From assembly GCA_018304465.1 (NCBI GenBank), contig JAGVWC010000011.1:62001-126000 (forward strand): DNA of 64,000 nucleotides, written 5' to 3'. Shown here piece after piece: positions 9,974-20,776 of the stretch. The notes below the pieces were generated by a model. The model did no database searches, was not told where the DNA came from, and worked only from the letters and a program-made list of their open reading frames with translations. Source of the stretch: Candidatus Iainarchaeum sp. Lineage in GTDB: Archaea > Iainarchaeota > Iainarchaeia > Iainarchaeales > JAGVWC01. The position numbers and the translations under genes were made by a program. Positions within the stretch are counted from its first letter, which is position 1. The number at the start of each line of letters is the position of its first letter.

Positions 9974-10519
9974 ATGAACGACCGGGCCAGAAGTTTTTTT
10001 GCGGTCAATTTTTCTTTGGACGTGCAAGACGAAATCACCCGGACATTGGTTTCGAAAATTCCTTCCGATGGATTCGGACGAACCCGCGTAGAAAACCTTC
10101 ACCTGACTCTTTTTTTCCTCGGAAACATTTCCAAAGAACAAGTCGAACAATTAAAAGAAAAAACCCTTTCGTTGACCCAAACCAACCCGTTCGAAATCGA
10201 ATTAAACGGAATCGGCCACTTCAAAAACAACATCATCTGGCTTGGAACCGGCAAAGGAACACCCGAAATCCAAGCGCTTGCAACAAACCTGGGAGACGCC
10301 ATCGGAATCAAACCCGCGGATTTTCACGCGCACATTACGCTTGCGCGAACCAAAAGCGCGTCCCCTCGAAGTGTTCGAGAAACCGTTGAAAAACTTCGAT
10401 CCGAAAAATACTCCAAAAAAATCTTCGTACGAGGATTCGATTTGATGCAATCCACCTTGACCCACCAAGGACCCCGCTACAAGGTCCTTTTTTCGATTTG
10501 TTTTGAAGAACCCCGCTGA
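9974..10519 (+). CDS. thpR: RNA 2',3'-cyclic phosphodiesterase (ThpR/LigT family)
   Basis: 2H phosphoesterase of 181 residues with both HxTx signatures: HLTLFFLG (around residue 43) and HITLART (around residue 121). The N-terminal RSFFAVNFSLDVQDEI is also typical. The family opens 2',3'-cyclic phosphates on RNA ends; cellular substrates are unclear. The 3' end overlaps the convergent glycosyltransferase gene by about 43 bp, an unusual tail-to-tail coding overlap. Confidence 0.9.
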   Translation: MNDRARSFFAVNFSLDVQDEITRTLVSKIPSDGFGRTRVENLHLTLFFLGNISKEQVEQLKEKTLSLTQTNPFEIELNGIGHFKNNIIWLGTGKGTPEIQALATNLGDAIGIKPADFHAHITLARTKSASPRSVRETVEKLRSEKYSKKIFVRGFDLMQSTLTHQGPRYKVLFSICFEEPR

Positions 10520-11151
10520 CCCGTTAATTCAAGCGAAAGCGAATCATCAAACCGGCCGAAAAAATACCGGTACGTTGGAGACAACACTTTTTTCCATTTA
10601 AACCCCTTTTTTTTCATGACATCAAACAAACGAATATCCAAAAAATCTCCGACAAAACCACCCGCGTCCAAAAAACGTCGGCGTTTTCCGAACAAGATGC
10701 CAAGAACGCATTCGATTTTGGAAACCGGAATCGTTTTTTTCGGATGAAAATAATCCGCCACCCGCAACACCTGTTTTTTTTCCGGTGAAACCACGATGAA
10801 CGAACCCAGCACAAAATCAAGCGACGGATCCGCGTTCAAAACCCCTACAAGAGTTGACACGTGATCGGGAAGCAATTCATCATCCGAATCCACAAACCCC
10901 ACGTATTCCGAACGACAATGTTCAAGCCCCCAATTGAGGGTTTCGGCTTGACCGTGATGGCCCAATTTGAAGTATTTCACGCGCGCATCCACAAGAAAAG
11001 GACGGACCCTGTGTTCGGTTTCATCCGTGCTGCCATCGTCCAAAATCCAATACTCAAAATCCCGGTTCGATTGCTTTAGAACCGACGAAATCGTCTGGGA
11101 AATCGAGTGACTCCGATTATACGTCGCGGTAAAAATCGTGGTTTGAACCAT
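10477..11151 (-). CDS. Family 2 glycosyltransferase
   Basis: GT-A fold transferase of 224 residues. It has the nucleotide-sugar site TTIFTATYNRSHSISQTI, the DxD-type segment EYWILDDGSTDETE and YVGFVDSDDELLPDHV. There is no membrane segment, so it is probably cytoplasmic. The donor and acceptor are not predictable. It lies just downstream of the pilin-like operon on the same strand and near two GT4 enzymes and a LmbE deacetylase, which suggests surface glycan or glycoprotein assembly (inference). A box CGTTTATTC (11174-11182) is 27 bp from the ATG, so it has its own promoter. Confidence 0.88.
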   Translation of the reverse strand: MVQTTIFTATYNRSHSISQTISSVLKQSNRDFEYWILDDGSTDETEHRVRPFLVDARVKYFKLGHHGQAETLNWGLEHCRSEYVGFVDSDDELLPDHVSTLVGVLNADPSLDFVLGSFIVVSPEKKQVLRVADYFHPKKTIPVSKIECVLGILFGKRRRFLDAGGFVGDFLDIRLFDVMKKKGFKWKKVLSPTYRYFFGRFDDSLSLELTGQRGSSKQIEKRTL

Positions 11152-11181: not shown

Positions 11182-12159
11182 TCAATTGGGAAGTGTCAAA
11201 ACCCGGTTTGTGCGAAGAATCTGGTATTTGGTGGCTTTCACTGAAAAATTGAAATCCATGCTTCGAAACGATTGAATAGACCGGTTAAAATCAAGCCCGA
11301 TGTTCATGTCCACGGAACGATTGGCATCCGACCACGCGCGAAACCTTGGACCGAACGCCAAGGTGACTCCTTTGGAATGACAATTTGGCCCGCTGCAAGT
11401 CAAAAAAACATTGAAATCCGCAGTCGTGGCATAATGACCTGACACCAGCGTCTGACTCAATGTGCATTTTTGACACGAGTCCACCAGAAAATTCACCGAA
11501 AAAAACGGCAGCGGATTCGCGGGGTTAAAACTGTCCGTCGGGCACGAAGAACCGTTGCAGCGCAAAAAATTAAAATCCGCGGAAGGGTCTTTCACCAAAA
11601 TATTGATGTCCGTTCGCCGGATCGAATTGGGGTCAAACATTGACGAACACGCCTGGGAACCGCCCCCGTCCACGGTCGACTGTGCAAGGGAAAGCTGGTA
11701 GCGCGCGCACACGGGCTCGAGCAAAAACGACGGCGAATCCAGAATCGATCCCCAATTCAAATCCGTCGCCGCGTTCATGTCGATCAAAATTTCCGTGCGA
11801 TTCAAATCGTCGTGCAATCCAAGATAAAAAACACGGTACCCCTGAACCGAATCAAAGTACCCTGAAAACACCTGTTGATTTAACGGCAGTTCCTGCGACA
11901 AAATAATCCGGTGGGGATTGATCAAAATATACGAAAACGGAAGCCCTTGTTCCACGATTTTTTTTCTCCCTCCGTTCAAATCCAACTGAACCAGCGAACG
12001 TTCGATATCGCGATACACTTTTCCAAGCTCCCGAAGCCTTGTTAATTCAGGCTGCGGTTCCAAATCCCGCGTAGACGACCGGATTTCCGAATTCAAGGTC
12101 AAGATCGCCAAAACGAACAGCAACGCGATCAACGTAAACAAGATTCCCCGCTGGTTCAC
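11182..12159 (-). CDS. Membrane-anchored pilin-like surface protein, last gene of the pilin operon
   Basis: About 325 residues, no recognised enzyme domain. The start is GTG 12159 inside the stop of the upstream gene (GTGA overlap), preceded by GGGTGG, which indicates translational coupling; the open frame to 12255 is a shadow. The N-terminus NQRGILFTLIALLFVLAIL is a short basic/polar leader plus one hydrophobic helix, like archaeal pilin-type proteins. The ectodomain has several cysteine pairs (CQKC, CSGPNC, CNGSSC). Function is inferred only from position in the class III signal-peptide cluster. Confidence 0.75.
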   Translation of the reverse strand: MNQRGILFTLIALLFVLAILTLNSEIRSSTRDLEPQPELTRLRELGKVYRDIERSLVQLDLNGGRKKIVEQGLPFSYILINPHRIILSQELPLNQQVFSGYFDSVQGYRVFYLGLHDDLNRTEILIDMNAATDLNWGSILDSPSFLLEPVCARYQLSLAQSTVDGGGSQACSSMFDPNSIRRTDINILVKDPSADFNFLRCNGSSCPTDSFNPANPLPFFSVNFLVDSCQKCTLSQTLVSGHYATTADFNVFLTCSGPNCHSKGVTLAFGPRFRAWSDANRSVDMNIGLDFNRSIQSFRSMDFNFSVKATKYQILRTNRVLTLPN

Positions 12160-15100
12160 GAAACCACCCTTTTTTTCCAAACCCACAAATCCATATCGTA
12201 AAAAACGTTCAATTGAGATTGACAATCGATCCGAATCGCATTGTTGTTGGGGCACTCCCGAACGGCTCTATCGCCGTTAATGACCGCAAACAACGTTCCT
12301 CCAATCCCGGAATCACGATCGAGGAGCAATTCGAAAAAATCCGTGCAAAGCGGTTGTTTTTCCCCGCACGAAAACGCGCTCACTGAAAAAGTTTTGACCA
12401 CCGAACCCGAAATCGTTTCCCTTCGGATCTGAATCGTGCTTTCGGGAGAACCCAAATATCCCGCGTTAATCGCGTTCAAGTCAAGCAACGCGCCGCCGCT
12501 TGTACTGGGACGCGCGCCGATGACCGCCAAGGTCAAATCCCGGTACCGCAACGTGATCGAAACGTTGGCGTCCCACGGAAAACCCGTCTGCAGGTTTTCG
12601 TCTTTATCCAAAAAATCCAGAAAGGTTCCCGGTTGGGGCACGACCCTGTTTTCATCCGAACACGAATACGACGAATTGCAGTCAAACGAAAACGTATACG
12701 AGCCATACCAAACTTTGCGAGTATTATTCAAATCCCCGATGTGATAATAAATGTAATTCTGATCCGATCCTTCGATGAAAACCCCCGTGTTCAGGTCCTT
12801 GACCGTTGTTCCATATGGAATCGGCACCGTGAGGTTGACGTCCGAAACCCGGTTCGTCGTGTACGCCGACGCGATATCCCCGATTTCCTGGGCGATGATT
12901 TCATACAATGCGATCAACGCGTTCTGATCCCACGCCACATACGATTTTCCCCCCGTAATATCGGCCACGTTGGTCAGTTCGGCTTGATCCGCATCCAATC
13001 CGAACGCGACCGTAAAAATCATGACATTATTGTCGCGTGCTACCAAGGCGGCGGCGCCGCTGTCACCCGAATTGGACTGCCCGTCCGACATCAACACAAC
13101 GAACTTTAACGCAAGCGGGTTCTGCGAACTTGGCACGTACCGGATTTCCACCATCATGTCTCCCGATTGGCTTGAAGACTGCTGAAACGCGTTTCCATTA
13201 ATATAATTGTTCGCCGAATTGCGTCCCCACGCATAATAATTTCCAGTGGACTGTCCGGTCGTGGAAAGCACGATATAATACGTGACTCCGGAAGAAAGCG
13301 AAACCGGCGACGGAAACGACACCGAATGCCAGTTGTAACCGGAAGAACTGATTTCGCTTGCCGGAATCGTGGCGGTCGCCCAATCCGATCCACTGATCGA
13401 ATTTCGAAGCCGAACCGTCACCGGCCCCGAAGGATCACCGGTTTTTTGAAGAAAAACATTGACTCCCGAAATCTGGTCGCCTTGCAGTTGTCGAAACGAC
13501 TGGCCCGCGGTGGATTCGGAAGAACTGTATCCGAATCGCAATTGCGAATTCCGAATATTTGTGGTCAAAAAACCGTCTTTTAACACAACTGTGCCCAAAT
13601 CCACTCCGGATTGGATATCCGTTCCGCCGTTCGCCGTCAAAGCATACAATGCCGAATTCACGTCGTCAAAAACAGCCGTCAATTCCTGGTTTTGCGTGGC
13701 CACAGTGTTAAACGAACTCAACCCGATCTGATCCTGGGGCTTCCACAAGAAGTCAAAATTCAAAAAAGCGCTTCCCGCCGCTTTCGCCTGATTGATGCGT
13801 GGCCCCAGCGACAAATCAATCGTAACCAAACCCTGGTTATCCGCGGAAATAAACGCGATATTGTTCCGTACAACGATTCCCCGGTAAACCGAAATCGATG
13901 GAAAACTCGTGAAAAAAGACGGGGCCGACGGAACCGATACATCCACGACCTGCAAAGACGAATCATCCGCGATATACGCACGATCGTTTTCAACCCAAAC
14001 ATCCCACGCGCTTCCAGGAGAATTGAACGTGCTTTCGACAAACGGCGCCGTCGGCGTGGACACGTTAATGATCCGCAATCCGGCCCCCCGATCCGCAACA
14101 AACGCGTAATCGCCCCGAACAAACACGCCTGTTGCGTCCGTCGTGTCCTCGATTCCCAATTGGAAAACGTCTAACGGGTTCGAAACATCCAGGATCCGCA
14201 GTCCGGAAGTATCGTCGGCAACGAATAATCGCGACCCATCCACAAAAACCTTGTTCGCATTGGTGGTCGGAAACGTTTCCACGAGTTGCGGATCGCTTTT
14301 ATCGGACACATCCACAACTTGGATTCCCTCCAAAATAAACGAACGCAAAAGCAAATCGCTGGTCAGCGCCGTCGACTGCTGGAACGCGTTTCCGCCGGCA
14401 TACGGATTGCTGGTTCTAACGCCGACTTGATAATAATTGCTCGTGGACTGCGTGGTTGTCGTCGCGACCACGAAAACCGTGTCATCCGGAGTCACTTGGA
14501 CCGGTTCCGAAAACGAAACGGTTTCCCAATTCAGCGAACTCGTGGAAATCGACCCGGATGAAATCTCGGCGGACGCAAGATCCGCTCCGGTAAGGCTTGA
14601 TCTCAAATGAATCGTCACGTTGCTCGGATTTCCGAATCTTCTCAAGTACAATTCCACTCCCGAAATCACGCCATGATTCGAAACAAACGATTGTCCCACC
14701 CACGATTCACCGGCCGAGTAGCCTAACCGAAGCGTGGAATTACTGGACGTGGTCGTGGTCACGTCGTAAATGGCGCCCGAAGCCGAAGCGGCTACAAACG
14801 CGTAGTTACCACTGACGGCAATTCCGTTAGCGGTTCCCAGGTTCGTGATCGTTGAAACCGAAAAAATGTTGCTCGGGTTCGACGCGTTCGCAATCCGGAA
14901 GCCGGACGCGCCGTCCGCTAAAAACACATAATTGCCTTGCTTGTTGATATCCATGGCCGTTCCAGGCGTATTCAAAGTCATGATCAAGGAAGGCAAACGC
15001 GGATTTTGGATATTCGCATCGCGAATTCCCGCGGATCCGTCCGCCAAATACAAATAATTGCCATCCAATGCCACGGCATAGGTATCCGTGGAAGCGGCGT

Positions 15101-15899
15101 GGCCATCCCAGCTCATGGAACCGCTGCGATCCATGACCAATGCGATATCCACCGGTTTTCGGCCGGTCGTTAACACCATGACATTCAGATCGACTTTGAT
15201 ATCCTGATCGCAATCCACGCTTCCGCTGGGGGCAGTGGACACGCCCAAGGTGATATTGGCGTCGCTTGCTCCCGCCAAATGCATTGCGAATGTTTTCGAC
15301 GAAAAACCGGGTGACTTTAATTCCGGTTCGCGGGCCATTCGGGCCAGAAAAACCAATCGGTCCCATCCAAAGACTTCGGGGTAAGCGGGTGAAAAAGGCG
15401 CAAGCGAAATCTGGCCCGGATCCACCTGACAGGCCAACACGTTTCCTTTGCGGAAAAAACTCAGTTTTTCGCGTGTCAAGGAACTGCCGATGGGAATCGG
15501 TTGTCCTTTGGATGGAAGAACGGTCCTGAATTGAAAACAATTGTCAAACGTCTGGTTTTGGATGCATTGGGCGCCGTTCAAATCATACCGCGTCATATCA
15601 ATGTGAAATTCGGTGTTCGGAGGAAGAACCGAACGGACTTTTTCCGAAATCGCGTCCATTTTTTCGCTGTCGTTCAAATCGTTTCGATCAAACGTGAAAA
15701 TGATGTATCCGCTTTCATCCAAACTGATCAGGGTGTCGCGCGACAATTGTTTGAGATTGGATATTTCCGACAACGGCTTGGATTCAAACGGTCCGACCCA
15801 TGCGACCGCGAGAAAACTGGTCACCAAAAAAACGGCAAACAACAAATCCGTCGACAAGGCGAAGCCTTTATCGGAAAACCGTGAGCCTGAAAATGGCAT
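12156..15899 (-). CDS. Giant pilin-like surface protein with interrupted von Willebrand A domain and LVIVD repeats
   Basis: Protein of 1247 residues. The N-terminal hydrophobic helix follows SDKGFALSTDLLFA, a pilin-type leader. A vWA domain begins with IALVMDRSGSMS (MIDAS DxSxS, about residue 260). It is then interrupted by roughly 390 residues of repeats with the pattern D..GNYLYLADGSAGI and VDVS.P, which are LVIVD beta-propeller units, and resumes with FNFDFLWKPQDQIGLSSF and NGGTDIQSGVDLG. A second interruption is a jelly-roll-like module, then KFVVLMSDGQSNS and IFTVAFG finish the vWA fold. The jelly-roll module also occurs once inside the first insert. GGAGGG precedes the ATG. Probably an extracellular adhesin or pilus tip. 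Confidence 0.8.
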   Translation of the reverse strand: MPFSGSRFSDKGFALSTDLLFAVFLVTSFLAVAWVGPFESKPLSEISNLKQLSRDTLISLDESGYIIFTFDRNDLNDSEKMDAISEKVRSVLPPNTEFHIDMTRYDLNGAQCIQNQTFDNCFQFRTVLPSKGQPIPIGSSLTREKLSFFRKGNVLACQVDPGQISLAPFSPAYPEVFGWDRLVFLARMAREPELKSPGFSSKTFAMHLAGASDANITLGVSTAPSGSVDCDQDIKVDLNVMVLTTGRKPVDIALVMDRSGSMSWDGHAASTDTYAVALDGNYLYLADGSAGIRDANIQNPRLPSLIMTLNTPGTAMDINKQGNYVFLADGASGFRIANASNPSNIFSVSTITNLGTANGIAVSGNYAFVAASASGAIYDVTTTTSSNSTLRLGYSAGESWVGQSFVSNHGVISGVELYLRRFGNPSNVTIHLRSSLTGADLASAEISSGSISTSSLNWETVSFSEPVQVTPDDTVFVVATTTTQSTSNYYQVGVRTSNPYAGGNAFQQSTALTSDLLLRSFILEGIQVVDVSDKSDPQLVETFPTTNANKVFVDGSRLFVADDTSGLRILDVSNPLDVFQLGIEDTTDATGVFVRGDYAFVADRGAGLRIINVSTPTAPFVESTFNSPGSAWDVWVENDRAYIADDSSLQVVDVSVPSAPSFFTSFPSISVYRGIVVRNNIAFISADNQGLVTIDLSLGPRINQAKAAGSAFLNFDFLWKPQDQIGLSSFNTVATQNQELTAVFDDVNSALYALTANGGTDIQSGVDLGTVVLKDGFLTTNIRNSQLRFGYSSSESTAGQSFRQLQGDQISGVNVFLQKTGDPSGPVTVRLRNSISGSDWATATIPASEISSSGYNWHSVSFPSPVSLSSGVTYYIVLSTTGQSTGNYYAWGRNSANNYINGNAFQQSSSQSGDMMVEIRYVPSSQNPLALKFVVLMSDGQSNSGDSGAAALVARDNNVMIFTVAFGLDADQAELTNVADITGGKSYVAWDQNALIALYEIIAQEIGDIASAYTTNRVSDVNLTVPIPYGTTVKDLNTGVFIEGSDQNYIYYHIGDLNNTRKVWYGSYTFSFDCNSSYSCSDENRVVPQPGTFLDFLDKDENLQTGFPWDANVSITLRYRDLTLAVIGARPSTSGGALLDLNAINAGYLGSPESTIQIRRETISGSVVKTFSVSAFSCGEKQPLCTDFFELLLDRDSGIGGTLFAVINGDRAVRECPNNNAIRIDCQSQLNVFYDMDLWVWKKRVVS

Positions 15900-16359
15900 T
15901 CTGTCCCTCCAGTGAAACGTTTCGCCAAACCACCGCGGTATTCGACGCGGGGTTGGGGATGCGACCGATGTTTCGATCCAACGAATCCTTGTTCGAATCG
16001 ATTTCGATGAAAAAATCGTATTCGAAAAACTTCATTTTGTGTTTTGTCAGGTTATAATCGTCAAGCACCATCTGCGAAAACATCTGTAACCGGTTCGAAT
16101 CCAACACGTTTTTTTGAACCGACAGCCCCACGATCTGAACCGACTGGGGATTCCAATCCATCGGATAGCCCGGCGACTCCACCAATGCCGTGGATTCCTG
16201 TTGCGCGCGGTTATACATGGTCTGGAATTCGTATTCTCCTTTCCAACGACTCACGTTTTCCGGCCAGATGTTCTCCAAAAAAAGAAAAATAATCAGAAAA
16301 ACGAACAAAACCCCCACGAGCTCGAGCATCAATGCCTGTCCTTGTTCATTGATTCTCAA
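15868..16359 (-). CDS. Pilin-like protein with class III-type signal
   Basis: Small secreted/pilin-like protein of 163 residues. The leader MRINEQGQALMLELVG has the Q-x-x-x-x-E spacing of archaeal class III signal peptides and is followed by a strongly hydrophobic helix (VLFVFLIIFLFLE). The body is polar with no recognised domain. The start lies inside the end of the preceding gene and the end overlaps the start of the giant vWA protein by 32 bp, so the operon is tightly coupled. Confidence 0.75.
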   Translation of the reverse strand: MRINEQGQALMLELVGVLFVFLIIFLFLENIWPENVSRWKGEYEFQTMYNRAQQESTALVESPGYPMDWNPQSVQIVGLSVQKNVLDSNRLQMFSQMVLDDYNLTKHKMKFFEYDFFIEIDSNKDSLDRNIGRIPNPASNTAVVWRNVSLEGQNAIFRLTVFR

Positions 16360-16702
16360 CTTCGACCACCCCGGTTCTGTTGGAAAGAACGATCATTCCT
16401 TTTGAAAGCGACGCGGGTTGTGCGATTCCCGAAAAAAAACAATACGCTTCGTTCACCGAAATCGACGATTCATTCAAAACAAAATCCGCGCGTGCCTCCA
16501 CCACGATTTGGGTGCCGGGTCCCTGAATGAAAACTTCCTGAACCAATTCGGATAACCGCGAGCAATTACCCATGTCAAACGAAGAATCCGAAATAAACAG
16601 CGTGTACTCCTGAATATTCAGGATGGACGACACCGCAATTACGAGAAAAACAAGAATCAACAACACCGAAATGAGACCCTCAAAAGAAATCTGGCCCCTC
16701 AT
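16346..16702 (-). CDS. Pilin-like protein with class III signal peptide
   Basis: 118 residues. MRGQISFEGLISVLLILVFL is a clear class III signal: a short leader, Gly-Gln cleavage context, Glu at +5 and a hydrophobic helix. Cleavage would be by an archaeal prepilin-type peptidase and the mature protein would assemble as a pilin or minor pilin. The gene overlaps both neighbours by a few bases (ATGA-type coupling). The ectodomain has one pair of cysteines and no named fold. Confidence 0.8.
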   Translation of the reverse strand: MRGQISFEGLISVLLILVFLVIAVSSILNIQEYTLFISDSSFDMGNCSRLSELVQEVFIQGPGTQIVVEARADFVLNESSISVNEAYCFFSGIAQPASLSKGMIVLSNRTGVVEVENQ

Positions 16703-17130
16703 CCGCTCACCACACTGATGTTGACGTCGGAACCCAAAGACACCAGTTTAATTTTATACGCGCCGCCTTTGACGGGAAGAGATCCTTTGACATTGGCGTC
16801 CAAATACACGAAGTAATTCCGCACTCCAAAAGGAGACGACAAATCAAAACCGACTTCTCTTCCGGACAAACCGCCGACATTGCTGTCTGAAACGCTTGCC
16901 GGAAGCGCGATTTCAACGATCAAGACGTTTCCGGGCCCCAAAGCATAGGAATGATTGATCCCCGTTTGAATGTTACGCAGACTATCCATGGCCATGCTTG
17001 ACGAAACCGACTCCGAAAATGTCAAAAAAGCCGATCCGCCCACGACTGCGATAAACAAAAGCATCACTACGGTCAAAACGAGCAATTCGAGCGAACTTTG
17101 ACCCCGGGAAGAAACACGCCAAACAGTCAT
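16699..17130 (-). CDS. Pilin-like protein, first gene of the operon
   Basis: 143 residues. The N-terminus SSRGQSSLELLVLTVVMLLF is a textbook class III signal peptide (R-G-Q-S-S-x-E then hydrophobic). The ectodomain is beta-rich with an IKLVSLGSDVNISVVSG ending. It is first in the five-gene operon running to 11182. A strong TATA (TTAATATATTA, 17152-17162) is centred 27 bp upstream of the ATG, so the operon message starts at or next to this codon and is leaderless. Confidence 0.85.
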   Translation of the reverse strand: MTVWRVSSRGQSSLELLVLTVVMLLFIAVVGGSAFLTFSESVSSSMAMDSLRNIQTGINHSYALGPGNVLIVEIALPASVSDSNVGGLSGREVGFDLSSPFGVRNYFVYLDANVKGSLPVKGGAYKIKLVSLGSDVNISVVSG

Positions 17131-17450: not shown

Positions 17451-18743
17451 TCAATCCGAAAAAGAATCCCAAATTTTTTGCACAACGCTTTTGTTCGGAT
17501 GTCCCCGAGTCGATTCCAACACGTTCACCAATTCTTTTACCAACGGTCGAAGAACCCTTTTTTTAGCAAGTTTTTTCCCGTTTTTTCCAATGCGGTTTCG
17601 AAGACGGAAATCCGACAACAAGCGATGCAAAACTTCGGCCAGCACGTTCGGATGCGACAACGGAATCACCACCAACGGACTCGATTGAGAAATATCTTTG
17701 GCCAAAAAAACCTCTTTTGGATGAATCGCTTCCATCACCGAAATCGCGCGCGTAGTCGTAACCACAGGCTTTTGCATCGCCATGGCTTCCCACACCGTAT
17801 TAAGATACGATTCCGGATACTGCGAATTGCACACCACCATATCCGCCCGCCGGTATTGTTTGAGAAAATCCTTCCGAACCGAATCCGCGACCGAAAGAAA
17901 ACGGATACGCGATTCGATTCCACAATTTTTTGCAAACTGTCGAATGGCATTCAACGCAAATCGATTGTTCTTATTCGTGGGATCGAAACCACCGAAAATC
18001 AAAACCGAATCCGGAAACTCGGAAGCGATCTTGCTGTATCCAAACAACAAGTCTCCGATGCCCTTGTCCCAGATCAAGCCGGGAACCCGCGGAAAAACCC
18101 GGCCCGGAAAAAGAATCCGTAGTTGTTTGGAAAAACGCGGCACGAAACCCGAAAAAAAATCTTTTGAAATTCCGTTATGCACCAATCGTATTTTTTTGGA
18201 AGACACTTTTTTTTGCGTCAACCATTTTTTCATCAGTAAAGAAGGCACTACGATTCGATTCGGACAAGACAACACCGTTTCCTCGACTTTCCGGTACTTG
18301 AAAAAATGCAGTTCCGATGCTTCTCGAGACACCAACGGAATCTTTCTTTTCGCGCACTCAAGAATCACATTGATCGAAACCCCCAGGAAAAAAAGACGAT
18401 GGATACTGACAAAGAACACGACGTGTTTTCCGGGGTCTGATTCGAATTGATCAAAAAAACGGGTCACCTTTTGACGAAGCGCGTCTGTTGCACTCACCAC
18501 CGTTTTTTTGGACAAAATTTCTTCTTCCGCTAATCGCCACAAATCATGCTCTGTTTTTGAAATCGCCGGGTCAACCACAAACCGAACCCCTTTTTTTACA
18601 AGTCCCGCCGGAGGCCGACTTGACGACAACACGTGCACACAATGCCCCTGATCCAAAAGCTCTTCGACCAGGGTTTCGGTGTACGATTGAAAGCCGCCGA
18701 TGCTCTGAAAGTCACGCGCAATAATACCGATCACAAGCCCCAT
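17451..18743 (-). CDS. Family 4 glycosyltransferase
   Basis: GT-B glycosyltransferase of about 430 residues. The N-terminal domain begins GLVIGIIARDFQSIGGFQSY with the GG loop. The nucleotide-binding part has LRILFPGRVFPRVPGLIWDKG and the E-x7-E region VVCNSQYPESYLNTVWEAMAM followed by KPVVTT. ATG 18743 is preferred over 18749 because a TATA (CTATATAAAT, 18764-18773) is 26 bp upstream. It is divergent from the LmbE deacetylase; the two may act on the same glycan (inference). Confidence 0.88.
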   Translation of the reverse strand: MGLVIGIIARDFQSIGGFQSYTETLVEELLDQGHCVHVLSSSRPPAGLVKKGVRFVVDPAISKTEHDLWRLAEEEILSKKTVVSATDALRQKVTRFFDQFESDPGKHVVFFVSIHRLFFLGVSINVILECAKRKIPLVSREASELHFFKYRKVEETVLSCPNRIVVPSLLMKKWLTQKKVSSKKIRLVHNGISKDFFSGFVPRFSKQLRILFPGRVFPRVPGLIWDKGIGDLLFGYSKIASEFPDSVLIFGGFDPTNKNNRFALNAIRQFAKNCGIESRIRFLSVADSVRKDFLKQYRRADMVVCNSQYPESYLNTVWEAMAMQKPVVTTTRAISVMEAIHPKEVFLAKDISQSSPLVVIPLSHPNVLAEVLHRLLSDFRLRNRIGKNGKKLAKKRVLRPLVKELVNVLESTRGHPNKSVVQKIWDSFSD

Positions 18744-18826
18744 AAACAACCCCTGATTTGCAGCTATATAAATGTATCTACTAATTCTACCGACGTTTTT
18801 TTATTGAAATCAATTTTCTATAAATA

Positions 18827-19633
18827 ATGATCAAAAAGGACAAGGGGGTTCATTTACTCGTCATTGCCCCGCACCGCGACGATGAAACACTTGGTTGCGG
18901 CGAATTCATCTTTGATATCCAATCCCAAGGACATTTCGTCTGGGTCGCGTTTCTTACCAGCGGAACTTCCCCGGAAGGAAAATTAAACCATAACGGACAC
19001 GTGCAGCTTCGACGACGCGAAGCGCGACGCGCCTTGAAATTCCTCGGAGTCCCGTCGCACCGCAACATTTTTTTTCCTTTGCTTACCCGAAACACGTACC
19101 GAAAAATTCCTTTTTTATTCGCTCAGCTGTCCAAGCACGTTAAAAAAATCGAGCCCCAATTCATTCTGGCTCCCGCCTTTGAAGGCGGTCATCCCGATCA
19201 TGACGTCGCGTCGTTTTTGGCGCATCTGCTAAAACAACACCACCCCAACGTCGTCGTATTGGAATACGCACTCTACAATTGGAAAAAAGGAGCCCGAAAA
19301 TGCAAAGAGTTCCTGGAAAAAGACGGATTCATCACCTGGCATCCGTCCAAAGAAGCAAAAAAAGCCAAAGCCCGCGCCCTGAATCAATATCGAACCCAGC
19401 AGCACATTCTTTCCCTGGAAAAAAGGACTTTCGTCGAACGGTTTCGACCCCAACCCGAACACGATTATTCCCGTCCGCCCGCGCACCAAAAAGCCCTTTA
19501 TGAACGATGGGCCAGCGGCGTGCGACAACAAGACGTTATTTCACACATATCCGCTTTCGAACAGCAATTCGCCAAAAAAAAACCGAAAAAAAAGCACACG
19601 AAAAAACTTTGGCACTCACTTGTTTTTCGTTAA
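18827..19633 (+). CDS. PIG-L/LmbE family N-acetylglucosamine deacetylase-like protein
   Basis: Zinc-dependent de-N-acetylase family, 268 residues. The metal site is PHRDDETLGCG (the family usually has PHPDD; here Arg replaces Pro), with a second ligand in EGGHPDHDVAS. The RRREARRALKFLGV helix is also typical. The likely substrate is an acetylated amino sugar in a glycan or glycolipid, unproven. The Lys-rich C-terminus overlaps the end of the convergent glycosyltransferase by 18 bp. Confidence 0.88.
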   Translation: MIKKDKGVHLLVIAPHRDDETLGCGEFIFDIQSQGHFVWVAFLTSGTSPEGKLNHNGHVQLRRREARRALKFLGVPSHRNIFFPLLTRNTYRKIPFLFAQLSKHVKKIEPQFILAPAFEGGHPDHDVASFLAHLLKQHHPNVVVLEYALYNWKKGARKCKEFLEKDGFITWHPSKEAKKAKARALNQYRTQQHILSLEKRTFVERFRPQPEHDYSRPPAHQKALYERWASGVRQQDVISHISAFEQQFAKKKPKKKHTKKLWHSLVFR

Positions 19634-20776
19634 CCGCAGGTAAATCTCTTCATACTGTTTCGTTTCTTGTTTCGGATGAAACGAACGCACGCGTTTCATG
19701 GCGGCGGATCCGAGCCGGTCAATCAATTTCGGATCCGCAAAAACCTTTTCGAAAACCATCCGAAGCGATTCGGAATCCCGCGGATTCGCCAAAAGCCCTT
19801 CAGTCTGGTCTTCCAACACCTGCATGACCCCCGGAATACGCGTGCTGACAATCAGCTTTCCGAACAACATTCCATCCAAAACCACGTTTGGACAGCCTTC
19901 GCGCGTGGAAGGAACCACCAGAACATCGCAGTCGTTATACTTTTCGTGGATTTTTTTGCGCGGCACCGGATCGAAAAAACGGATTCGCTTCGAAAGACCC
20001 GTTTTGGCCAGCAATTTTTCATACGATTTTTTTTCCTCCGCGTTGATTCTACCCGTGACCTGTAATTCGAACGGAAAACGCTTTAGCTCCGACAAAGCTT
20101 CGATCAAATACACGAACCCTTTTTTGCGATGAACATCGCCCACGTACCCGATCGAGATTTTTTTTCCTCTTTGACGAGGTTTCACGGGCAAATGTTCCAT
20201 GAAACCGGAATTCGGAATCACCGCGGACTTATCCAGAACAGGGGCGATGACATTTCCGATTTCGCGTAACTCGGGATTCACAAACGTCAAAAAATCCGCG
20301 TTCTGCAAAGTCCAAAGCACCCACGGAAAACGAGTCGCCACGAACACGTTGCGCGCGACATCGCTTCCCCGCACGCTGACCAACACCGGAATCTTCAAAA
20401 TTTTTCCCGCAAGAACGCTGACGTAACCGGTCGGCACCAGAAAATACGCGTGAATCAAATCGAACGAATATTTCCGATGCAAAGACGAAATCGCGAAAAA
20501 AAGATTATCCAATCCCCATTCGTACTGGGAAGAACCGTCATCGGGAGCGACGAAAACCGAATGAAGAAAAAAATTCCCTTTTTTTTCCGTTCGAAAATCG
20601 GATTTGATGAGATCCAATTGATCGGAAGCAAACGCGCCCGCAATCAAGTGAACCTCGAACCGGTCCGACAAATGGGAAATCAACCGATGCGCGGAAATCG
20701 ATACGCCGTCCGAATCCGGGTCAAAATGGTGAACCACCACCGCGATCCGCAATTTTTTATTTTCCATCCCAACCAT
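19616..20776 (-). CDS. Family 4 glycosyltransferase
   Basis: GT-B enzyme of 386 residues. N-terminus: RIAVVVHHFDPDSDGVSISA. Domain II: KISIGYVGDVHRKKGFVYLI and the donor-binding VVPSTREGCPNVVLDGMLFG then KLIVSTRIPGV. There is no membrane helix. It forms a convergent pair with the LmbE-type deacetylase, and with the 17451-18743 GT4 it makes up a small glycan-assembly neighbourhood. MENKKLR at 20767 is an alternative start. Confidence 0.88.
   Translation of the reverse strand: MVGMENKKLRIAVVVHHFDPDSDGVSISAHRLISHLSDRFEVHLIAGAFASDQLDLIKSDFRTEKKGNFFLHSVFVAPDDGSSQYEWGLDNLFFAISSLHRKYSFDLIHAYFLVPTGYVSVLAGKILKIPVLVSVRGSDVARNVFVATRFPWVLWTLQNADFLTFVNPELREIGNVIAPVLDKSAVIPNSGFMEHLPVKPRQRGKKISIGYVGDVHRKKGFVYLIEALSELKRFPFELQVTGRINAEEKKSYEKLLAKTGLSKRIRFFDPVPRKKIHEKYNDCDVLVVPSTREGCPNVVLDGMLFGKLIVSTRIPGVMQVLEDQTEGLLANPRDSESLRMVFEKVFADPKLIDRLGSAAMKRVRSFHPKQETKQYEEIYLRLTKNK

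Follow-up and report, generated by a model that had tools for sequence, protein, structure and literature searches.

Domain Organization of the Locus

The window analyzed here is a 64,000-nucleotide stretch from the archaeon Candidatus Iainarchaeum sp. (contig JAGVWC010000011.1, positions 62,001 to 126,000). The gene presented lies at 12156..15899 on its minus strand, as do all features of the gene and its operon, and encodes a predicted pilin of 1247 amino acids (aa) with zero internal stops, carrying a von Willebrand A (vWA) domain interrupted by other domains. The protein begins with a leader of the class III (archaeal prepilin) type (residues 1–12, ending SDKG, 15864..15899; read from the sequence against the general motif), followed by a hydrophobic segment, FALSTDLLFAVFLVTSFL... 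(residues 13–36, 15792..15863, also from the sequence). A conserved N-terminal (pilin) domain covers residues 9–159 (15423..15875; hidden Markov model (HMM) segment N, 7.8e-46). The first vWA piece, residues 206–264 (15108..15284), holds strand beta1 and the DxSxS motif (D257, S259, S261) of the metal ion-dependent adhesion site (MIDAS), and is placed by HMM, structural model and the rejoined core described below. Insert 1 comes next, composed of the first part of a seven-bladed LVIVD propeller (residues 265–383, 14751..15107), DUF4082 module A within propeller blade 3, between strands 3 and 4 (residues 384–520, 14340..14750; Pfam, model and alignment), and the second part of the propeller (residues 521–697, 13809..14339), both propeller parts being assigned by Pfam, model and PDB comparison. 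The second vWA piece (alpha1-beta2-beta3-alpha2-alpha3 with MIDAS T760, residues 698–776, 13572..13808; HMM, model, rejoined core) is followed between alpha3 and beta4 by insert 2, DUF4082 module B (residues 781–919, 13143..13559; HMM, model, genome search), and by the third piece, beta4 to alpha6 with MIDAS D939 (residues 926–1008, 12876..13124; Pfam, HMM, model, rejoined core). A conserved beta-rich domain closes the protein (residues 1016–1243, 12171..12854; HMM segment D, 3.2e-70). The C-terminal domain of one relative, L053 (residues 820–920), matches CARDB with 26.6 bits (cut-off 22.7), which is a hint to its fold.

Evidence for a Single vWA Domain

In the intact protein Pfam sees the vWA domain in pieces, VWA at 922–994 and VWA_2 at 701–775, the latter under its cut-off. 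The VWA profile (PF00092) reaches 35.7 bits on the intact protein (cut-off 23.8), and no single piece exceeds 35.7 bits for VWA or 24.0 bits for VWA_2. When residues 240–264, 698–776 and 926–1008 were rejoined, the resulting core matched PF00092 in a single stretch covering profile positions 1–167 of 174, with 61.6 bits; a control with the pieces in permuted order gave 51.0 bits in two stretches. Against PDB sequences the rejoined core found nine distinct matches at E ≤ 0.01, mostly vWA domains, with CLCA1 (6pyo, 3.8e-10) as the best and an alignment that crosses both joints. The intact protein found three matches at E ≤ 1, the best at 0.3. All five MIDAS residues (D257, S259, S261, T760, D939) are present, forming a complete predicted metal site.

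An AlphaFold2 model was built for residues 48–1247 from a 17-row alignment (model residue = protein residue minus 47), with a mean predicted local distance difference test (pLDDT) of 77 and a predicted template modeling score (pTM) of 0.53. Along the chain it places beta1 at model positions 203–210, the propeller at 219–648 and alpha1 at 654–666, then beta2, beta3, alpha2 and alpha3 (715–727), module B at 740–875, beta4 at 884–891 and the remaining elements to alpha6 (945–965). The resulting order is beta1/insert/alpha1-beta2-beta3-alpha2-alpha3/insert/beta4-alpha4-beta5-alpha5-beta6-alpha6; packing into one sheet was not visible. The rejoined-core match, the modelled element order and relatives with other or almost no cargo together support, on sequence and model grounds, the reading of the protein as a single vWA domain interrupted twice.

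This agrees with the original prediction, made from the letters of the window, of nested insertion into one vWA fold, which is further borne out by relatives having nothing at the second insertion site. The motifs on which it was built, DRSGS (257–261), IGLSSF (725–730), GGTD (758–761) and VVLMSDG (934–940), are all present, and structure prediction, in a model whose coordinates could not be inspected, did not yield sequential domains lacking a shared core. The distance of about 390 residues given from DRSGS to IGLSSF was too short, since 463 residues were measured, with an insert of about 435.

Nested Propeller and DUF4082 Modules

Insert 1, of about 435 aa, occupies the MIDAS loop, which links beta1 to alpha1. 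Pfam finds seven LVIVD (PF08309) stretches in it (2.1e-40, 136.2 bits, cut-off 20.2), and a strand count on the model gives a propeller of seven four-stranded blades. Comparison of the model with the PDB by VIA-align 2 agrees, as all 50 of the 50 matches listed are propellers of the seven-bladed type (WD40-type), with Z of 31.6–34.5. They align 258–277 residues, typically over model positions 217–651 and spanning 210–706 at most. Module A appears as a gap inside these alignments to solved chains, and its site is cleanly empty in 6 of the 10 proteins of alignment A2, where strand 3 runs straight into strand 4. Because the propeller is a single unit around module A and the site is empty in homologues, the predicted nesting at insert 1 is three deep, with a DUF4082 beta module inside a propeller inside a vWA domain. 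The expectation of LVIVD repeats plus one module after the MIDAS thus holds for both components but not for their arrangement, the module being inside the propeller and not beside it.

The two DUF4082 (PF13313) copies score 34.1 and 30.4 bits over a curated cut-off of 28.4 (two stretches, 7.1e-13), and a genome search returned them as the only DUF4082 matches in the genome. Modules A and B are 45% identical (alignment A4), in line with the second copy predicted between GGTD and VVLMSDG. Their local alignment score of 303 lies far above anything reached in 500 shuffles (mean 36.4, sd 6.5, maximum 67), so that the likeness is not due to chance. At the DNA level the best local alignment between them is one stretch of 20 bases; this divergence indicates that the copies are old, and an assembly repeat was rejected as the source of module B. 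In a tree of 15 modules, window A, window B and other copies stand on open forks, so that module B may be a copy of A or have come from another source. Both modules are all-beta in the model, but a profile of nine DUF4082 modules compared by sequence with solved structures had no convincing match (best E = 0.11), and the name jelly-roll remains a label.

Standard vWA topology puts the beta1-alpha1 loop on the same face as the MIDAS and the alpha3-beta4 loop on the opposite side. By topology, insert 1, in a beta-to-alpha loop beside the MIDAS, would be presented at the adhesive face, as had been proposed for all modules, whereas module B, in an alpha-to-beta loop, would face away from the MIDAS and, reach aside, off the adhesive face.

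Family Distribution and Cargo Variety

A tblastn-type search (E ≤ 0.001) found matches in 45 of 75 genomes at the level of the order and in 46 of 87 at that of the phylum, counts that include some matches in the propeller or DUF4082 only. Among GTDB-derived contigs 25 loci were confirmed, of which 21 belong to the family and four are bacterial vWA proteins matching in the vWA region only. Titles of the archaeal records read mostly Ca. Diapherotrites, with a few Micrarchaeota, Thaumarchaeota and even bacteria, yet the contigs fall in the same order. Specifically, L084, L086 and L100 are titled Thaumarchaeota, Chloroflexi and Falkowbacteria, and these titles are probably wrong. Neither a first search of phage and plasmid collections nor a first scan of genome contigs found a relative, and none was found in viral contigs; a later phage and plasmid search returned four records, with the best places mainly in the propeller range and none covering 80% of the query.

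For comparison, 40 loci chosen among the matches (not all of them) were added to the window, giving 36 proteins with all three vWA pieces, the window protein included. Five others, L049, L066, L069, L078 and L057:3-1145, each with at least two family segments, were dropped for a missing vWA piece. At site 1, the MIDAS loop, the gap is 119–928 aa in 35 of the 36 and 8 aa in L070. At site 2, between alpha3 and beta4, 34 proteins have 7–12 aa, a fragment at a contig edge has 32, and the window protein, which alone among the 36 holds a domain there, has 159. Un-inserted homologues, which the original prediction had suggested looking for, therefore exist for both sites. The cargo of site 1 is a propeller alone in 11 proteins, a propeller with DUF4082 in 10, a short beta module in eight and another long insert in six, with none in the remaining one. 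The short module occurs twice in tandem in L048 and, by a local profile, three times in L075, while Pfam recognizes LamG in the inserts of L071, L073, L077 and L067:11578-16677 among the members scanned. The MIDAS (D, S, S, T, D) is complete in 21 of the 24 members covering all five positions; T is replaced by D in L062 and L063, and L070, the sole insert-free member, has lost two of the five (S and T).

Outside the archaea, the pattern DRSGSMSW led to three vWA proteins from planctomycetes and Rhizobium, L103, L104 and L105. Their N-termini match Tad (Flp pilus; PF13400), two above the cut-off of 22.3 bits and L104 at 19.5; in the window protein PF13400 has no match up to E = 1. The lengthened post-MIDAS loop of these three is possibly the same socket in small form.

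Evidence for Cargo Exchange Between Paralogues

When the five cargo classes are mapped on a tree of the core, built without the inserts, 7 changes are required, compared with a minimum of 4 and a shuffle mean of 20.2, which indicates that cargo is mostly, not strictly, inherited. L045 is in conflict. Its core groups with L051 (100/98) among window-type proteins, and its propeller and DUF4082 fall with five paralogues from the GTDB family to which L045 belongs (L057, L067, L068, L071, L072), with support of 100/100 in the insert tree and 99/96 in the DUF4082 tree. In approximately unbiased (AU) tests, whose groups were chosen once the trees were known, forcing the L045 core with those paralogues was rejected (p-AU 6.5e-7), as was forcing its insert with the window protein and L042 (p-AU 2.3e-5). 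Given these conflicting trees, the simplest reading is that a cargo cassette was transferred between paralogous pilin genes in L045.

Pilin Operon and Pilus Machinery

In class III prepilin signals, a short leader with G as its last residue precedes some 20 hydrophobic residues. The leader and hydrophobic stretch of the window protein fit this pattern, judged by eye from the sequence and its relatives, which share K/R-G-F-x-F-S-x-D at the same N-terminal place. Four further pilin-like genes accompany it. The operon opens with a product of 143 aa (SSRG/QSSLELLVLTVVMLLF, 16699..17130), in which PF04021 scores 12.7 bits, under its cut-off. A 118-aa product follows (MRG/QISFEGLISVLLILVFL, 16346..16702; 4-base overlap with the preceding gene), then one of 163 aa (NEQG/QALMLELVGVLFVFLII, 15868..16359), overlapping the preceding gene by 14 bases and the vWA pilin by 32. 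Downstream, a 325-aa product starting from GTG at 12159 (NQRG/ILFTLIALLFVLAIL, 11182..12159) overlaps the vWA pilin stop as GTGA. All five operon products show this pattern, with a hydrophobic stretch some 20 residues long after the G. The same layout, with the large gene preceded by three small pilin-like genes and followed by one, recurs in 17 of the 19 relatives in which enough of the surroundings could be read; the other two, L043 and L065, were incomplete, and in L050, L051 and L062 one gene each was read by eye. The pilin N-terminus, the operon and the order-wide family go beyond what had been predicted.

Concerning the motor, relative L047 has an assembly ATPase (T2SSE, 88.3 bits) after its operon. 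In the genome of the window itself, a paralogous operon on contig 8 contains three pilin-like genes and a vWA pilin of 1478 aa whose site 1 holds LamG, and continues with proteins of 357 and 751 aa, a T2SSE ATPase, two T2SSF proteins and a pilin. The genome as a whole has nine T2SSE and two Peptidase_A24 matches. Most likely, the window gene would serve a type IV pilus that takes its motor from another locus. The T2SSE ATPase of the paralogous operon on contig 8 (L115:6280-10011), which is PilB3-like, carries an intein with LAGLIDADG domains (PF14890, residues 323–988). On both sides of the pilin operon lie glycosyltransferases of families 2 and 1/4 (window 10477–11151, 17451–18749 and 19616–20776), so that surface glycans or glycosylated pilins may be further products of the locus.

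Proposed Function and Alternatives

We consider it likely that the protein is a minor-pilin adhesin of a type IV pilus with a socket for exchangeable cargo at the MIDAS loop, although processing, entry into the filament, tip position and ligand binding are what we infer and not what was shown. The N-terminal pilin segment would allow processing and building into the filament, most likely alongside the four pilin-like proteins of the operon at its tip, a position suggested by analogy with Streptococcus sanguinis PilB and PilY1. The pilin part and the C-terminal domains would carry a single vWA domain with a complete MIDAS, whose beta1-alpha1 loop appears to serve as a family-wide socket, filled here by what is modelled as a seven-bladed propeller holding a DUF4082 module. 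Cargo placed in this loop would be held only a few residues away from the metal site; the propeller and the MIDAS probably share the ligand contacts or gate them between themselves, and an exchange of cargo could alter the binding target of the pilus. Module B, on the opposite face, would probably act as a side wing or stalk contact. A bolder form of the proposal can be offered only tentatively. Propellers, propellers with DUF4082, LamG and short beta modules would move as cassettes between paralogues on an exchangeable-cargo platform, and the propeller and MIDAS would form a single-chain analogue of the integrin head with reversed nesting, gripping a ligand between them and mechanically coupling the cargo to the MIDAS loop.

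Several findings weigh against a minor-pilin adhesin. The pTM of the model is 0.53, its coordinates and domain orientation were not seen, and the joints flanking module B (model 729–739 and 846–866) have pLDDT below 50. Its PDB comparison listed propellers only, leaving the vWA core without a three-dimensional match, and a second model, of relative L097, reached a pLDDT of 49.3 and was not used further. None of the curated models for pilins or class III signals reached its cut-off, the signal being read by motif, and the window operon has no adjoining assembly ATPase. The MIDAS residues lost in L062, L063 and L070 indicate that metal binding is not needed in all members.

The main rival is a role in assembly or anchoring like that of bacterial TadG, where the vWA domain and its cargo would initiate, cap or anchor the pilus and bind no outside ligand. 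It gains from the Tad (PF13400) matches in three of the four matches outside the archaeal group, and TadG-type vWA proteins have been hypothesized as pilus anchors, as an excerpt of the archaeal census has it (Makarova et al., PMC4858521). Highly variable site-1 cargo, with lectin-like LamG and propellers, nevertheless resembles ligand choice more than a constant structural role, and the MIDAS is complete in most members (21/24), so we regard this role as rather improbable. Next comes a plain membrane-anchored surface receptor or S-layer-like adhesin that is held in the membrane by its N-terminal segment as a simple signal anchor and is at no time part of a filament, the pilin-like genes beside it building a short pseudopilus of their own. 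That segment could indeed serve as an anchor, and the missing ATPase and curated pilin match would fit; this is nonetheless distinctly unlikely in view of the G-F-x-F-S-x-D at the same place in relatives, the overlapping operon with four pilin-like genes kept in 17 of 19 relatives and the contig 8 paralogue (C8) sharing one operon with an ATPase, two T2SSF proteins and a pilin. A last alternative, that the vWA pieces are separate remnants in sequential domains and share no fold, could draw on the partial Pfam matches in the intact protein and on the low confidence at the module B joints. The rejoined core, the empty sites in relatives and the modelled element order led us to reject it; already largely refuted, it is extremely improbable.

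Comparison with Known Systems

The comparisons below draw on excerpts of the cited papers. Proteins of this kind are already known, as bacterial vWA pilins have been published (PilB, CpaL). PilB of S. sanguinis, a modular type IV pilin, shares the pilin N-terminus, a vWA domain with MIDAS, extras flanking that site (two arms) and the role of type IV pilus adhesin (PMC8179133). It differs in being bacterial, in having its vWA domain after a small pilin module and in bearing two short arms in place of domains of 120–900 residues, with neither a propeller nor a second insert on the far face. CpaL of Caulobacter crescentus, a minor pilin-like protein of the Tad pilus (T4cP), has one insert and, instead of a propeller, two six-stranded barrels without strong structural relatives (PMC12607857). 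RrgA, GBS104 and Mfa5 also place at the pilus tip a vWA domain whose MIDAS is framed by ARM insertions (PMC7835359), but they belong to sortase or type V fimbriae, and their arms, ARM2 between beta4 and alpha4 and ARM1 within a strand, measure about 38–123 residues (PMC7835359). PilY1/PilC combines vWA and propeller in one pilus-tip adhesin, although the propeller of PilY1 (IPR008707) is C-terminal and un-nested and PilY1 is not a pilin (PMC9210963, PMC8179133). A propeller of that type was rejected for the window protein, where no such Pfam match appears up to E = 1 and the propeller is internal and of the LVIVD type.

Concerning archaea, the predicted adhesins of DUF2341 type are likewise large and encoded in pilin loci, but they have another domain, and in the excerpts of the same census vWA is mentioned for regulators (ArnB) and bacterial TadG and not for archaeal pilins (Makarova 2016, PMC4858521). 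We found no description of the archaeal family in open-licence PMC literature; as far as that literature shows, the new parts are the family itself, whole-domain cargo in the MIDAS loop, the nested propeller and the cargo exchange. Its members would offer a natural series in which a pilus adhesin swaps its binding domain while carrier and metal site are kept, with the cargo plugged into the metal-binding loop and not appended at the end. They also provide a set of predicted adhesins for poorly known, mostly uncultured archaea with small genomes, and thus a place to look for pilus ligands. The closing parallel is with integrin alpha subunits bearing alphaI, in which a vWA domain and a seven-bladed propeller are likewise joined by insertion and both bind ligand (PMC4237329). 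There the vWA domain is inserted in the propeller and here the propeller in the vWA domain, with no evidence of common descent, so that the predicted nesting of beta module in propeller in vWA domain is a reverse mirror of the integrin arrangement.

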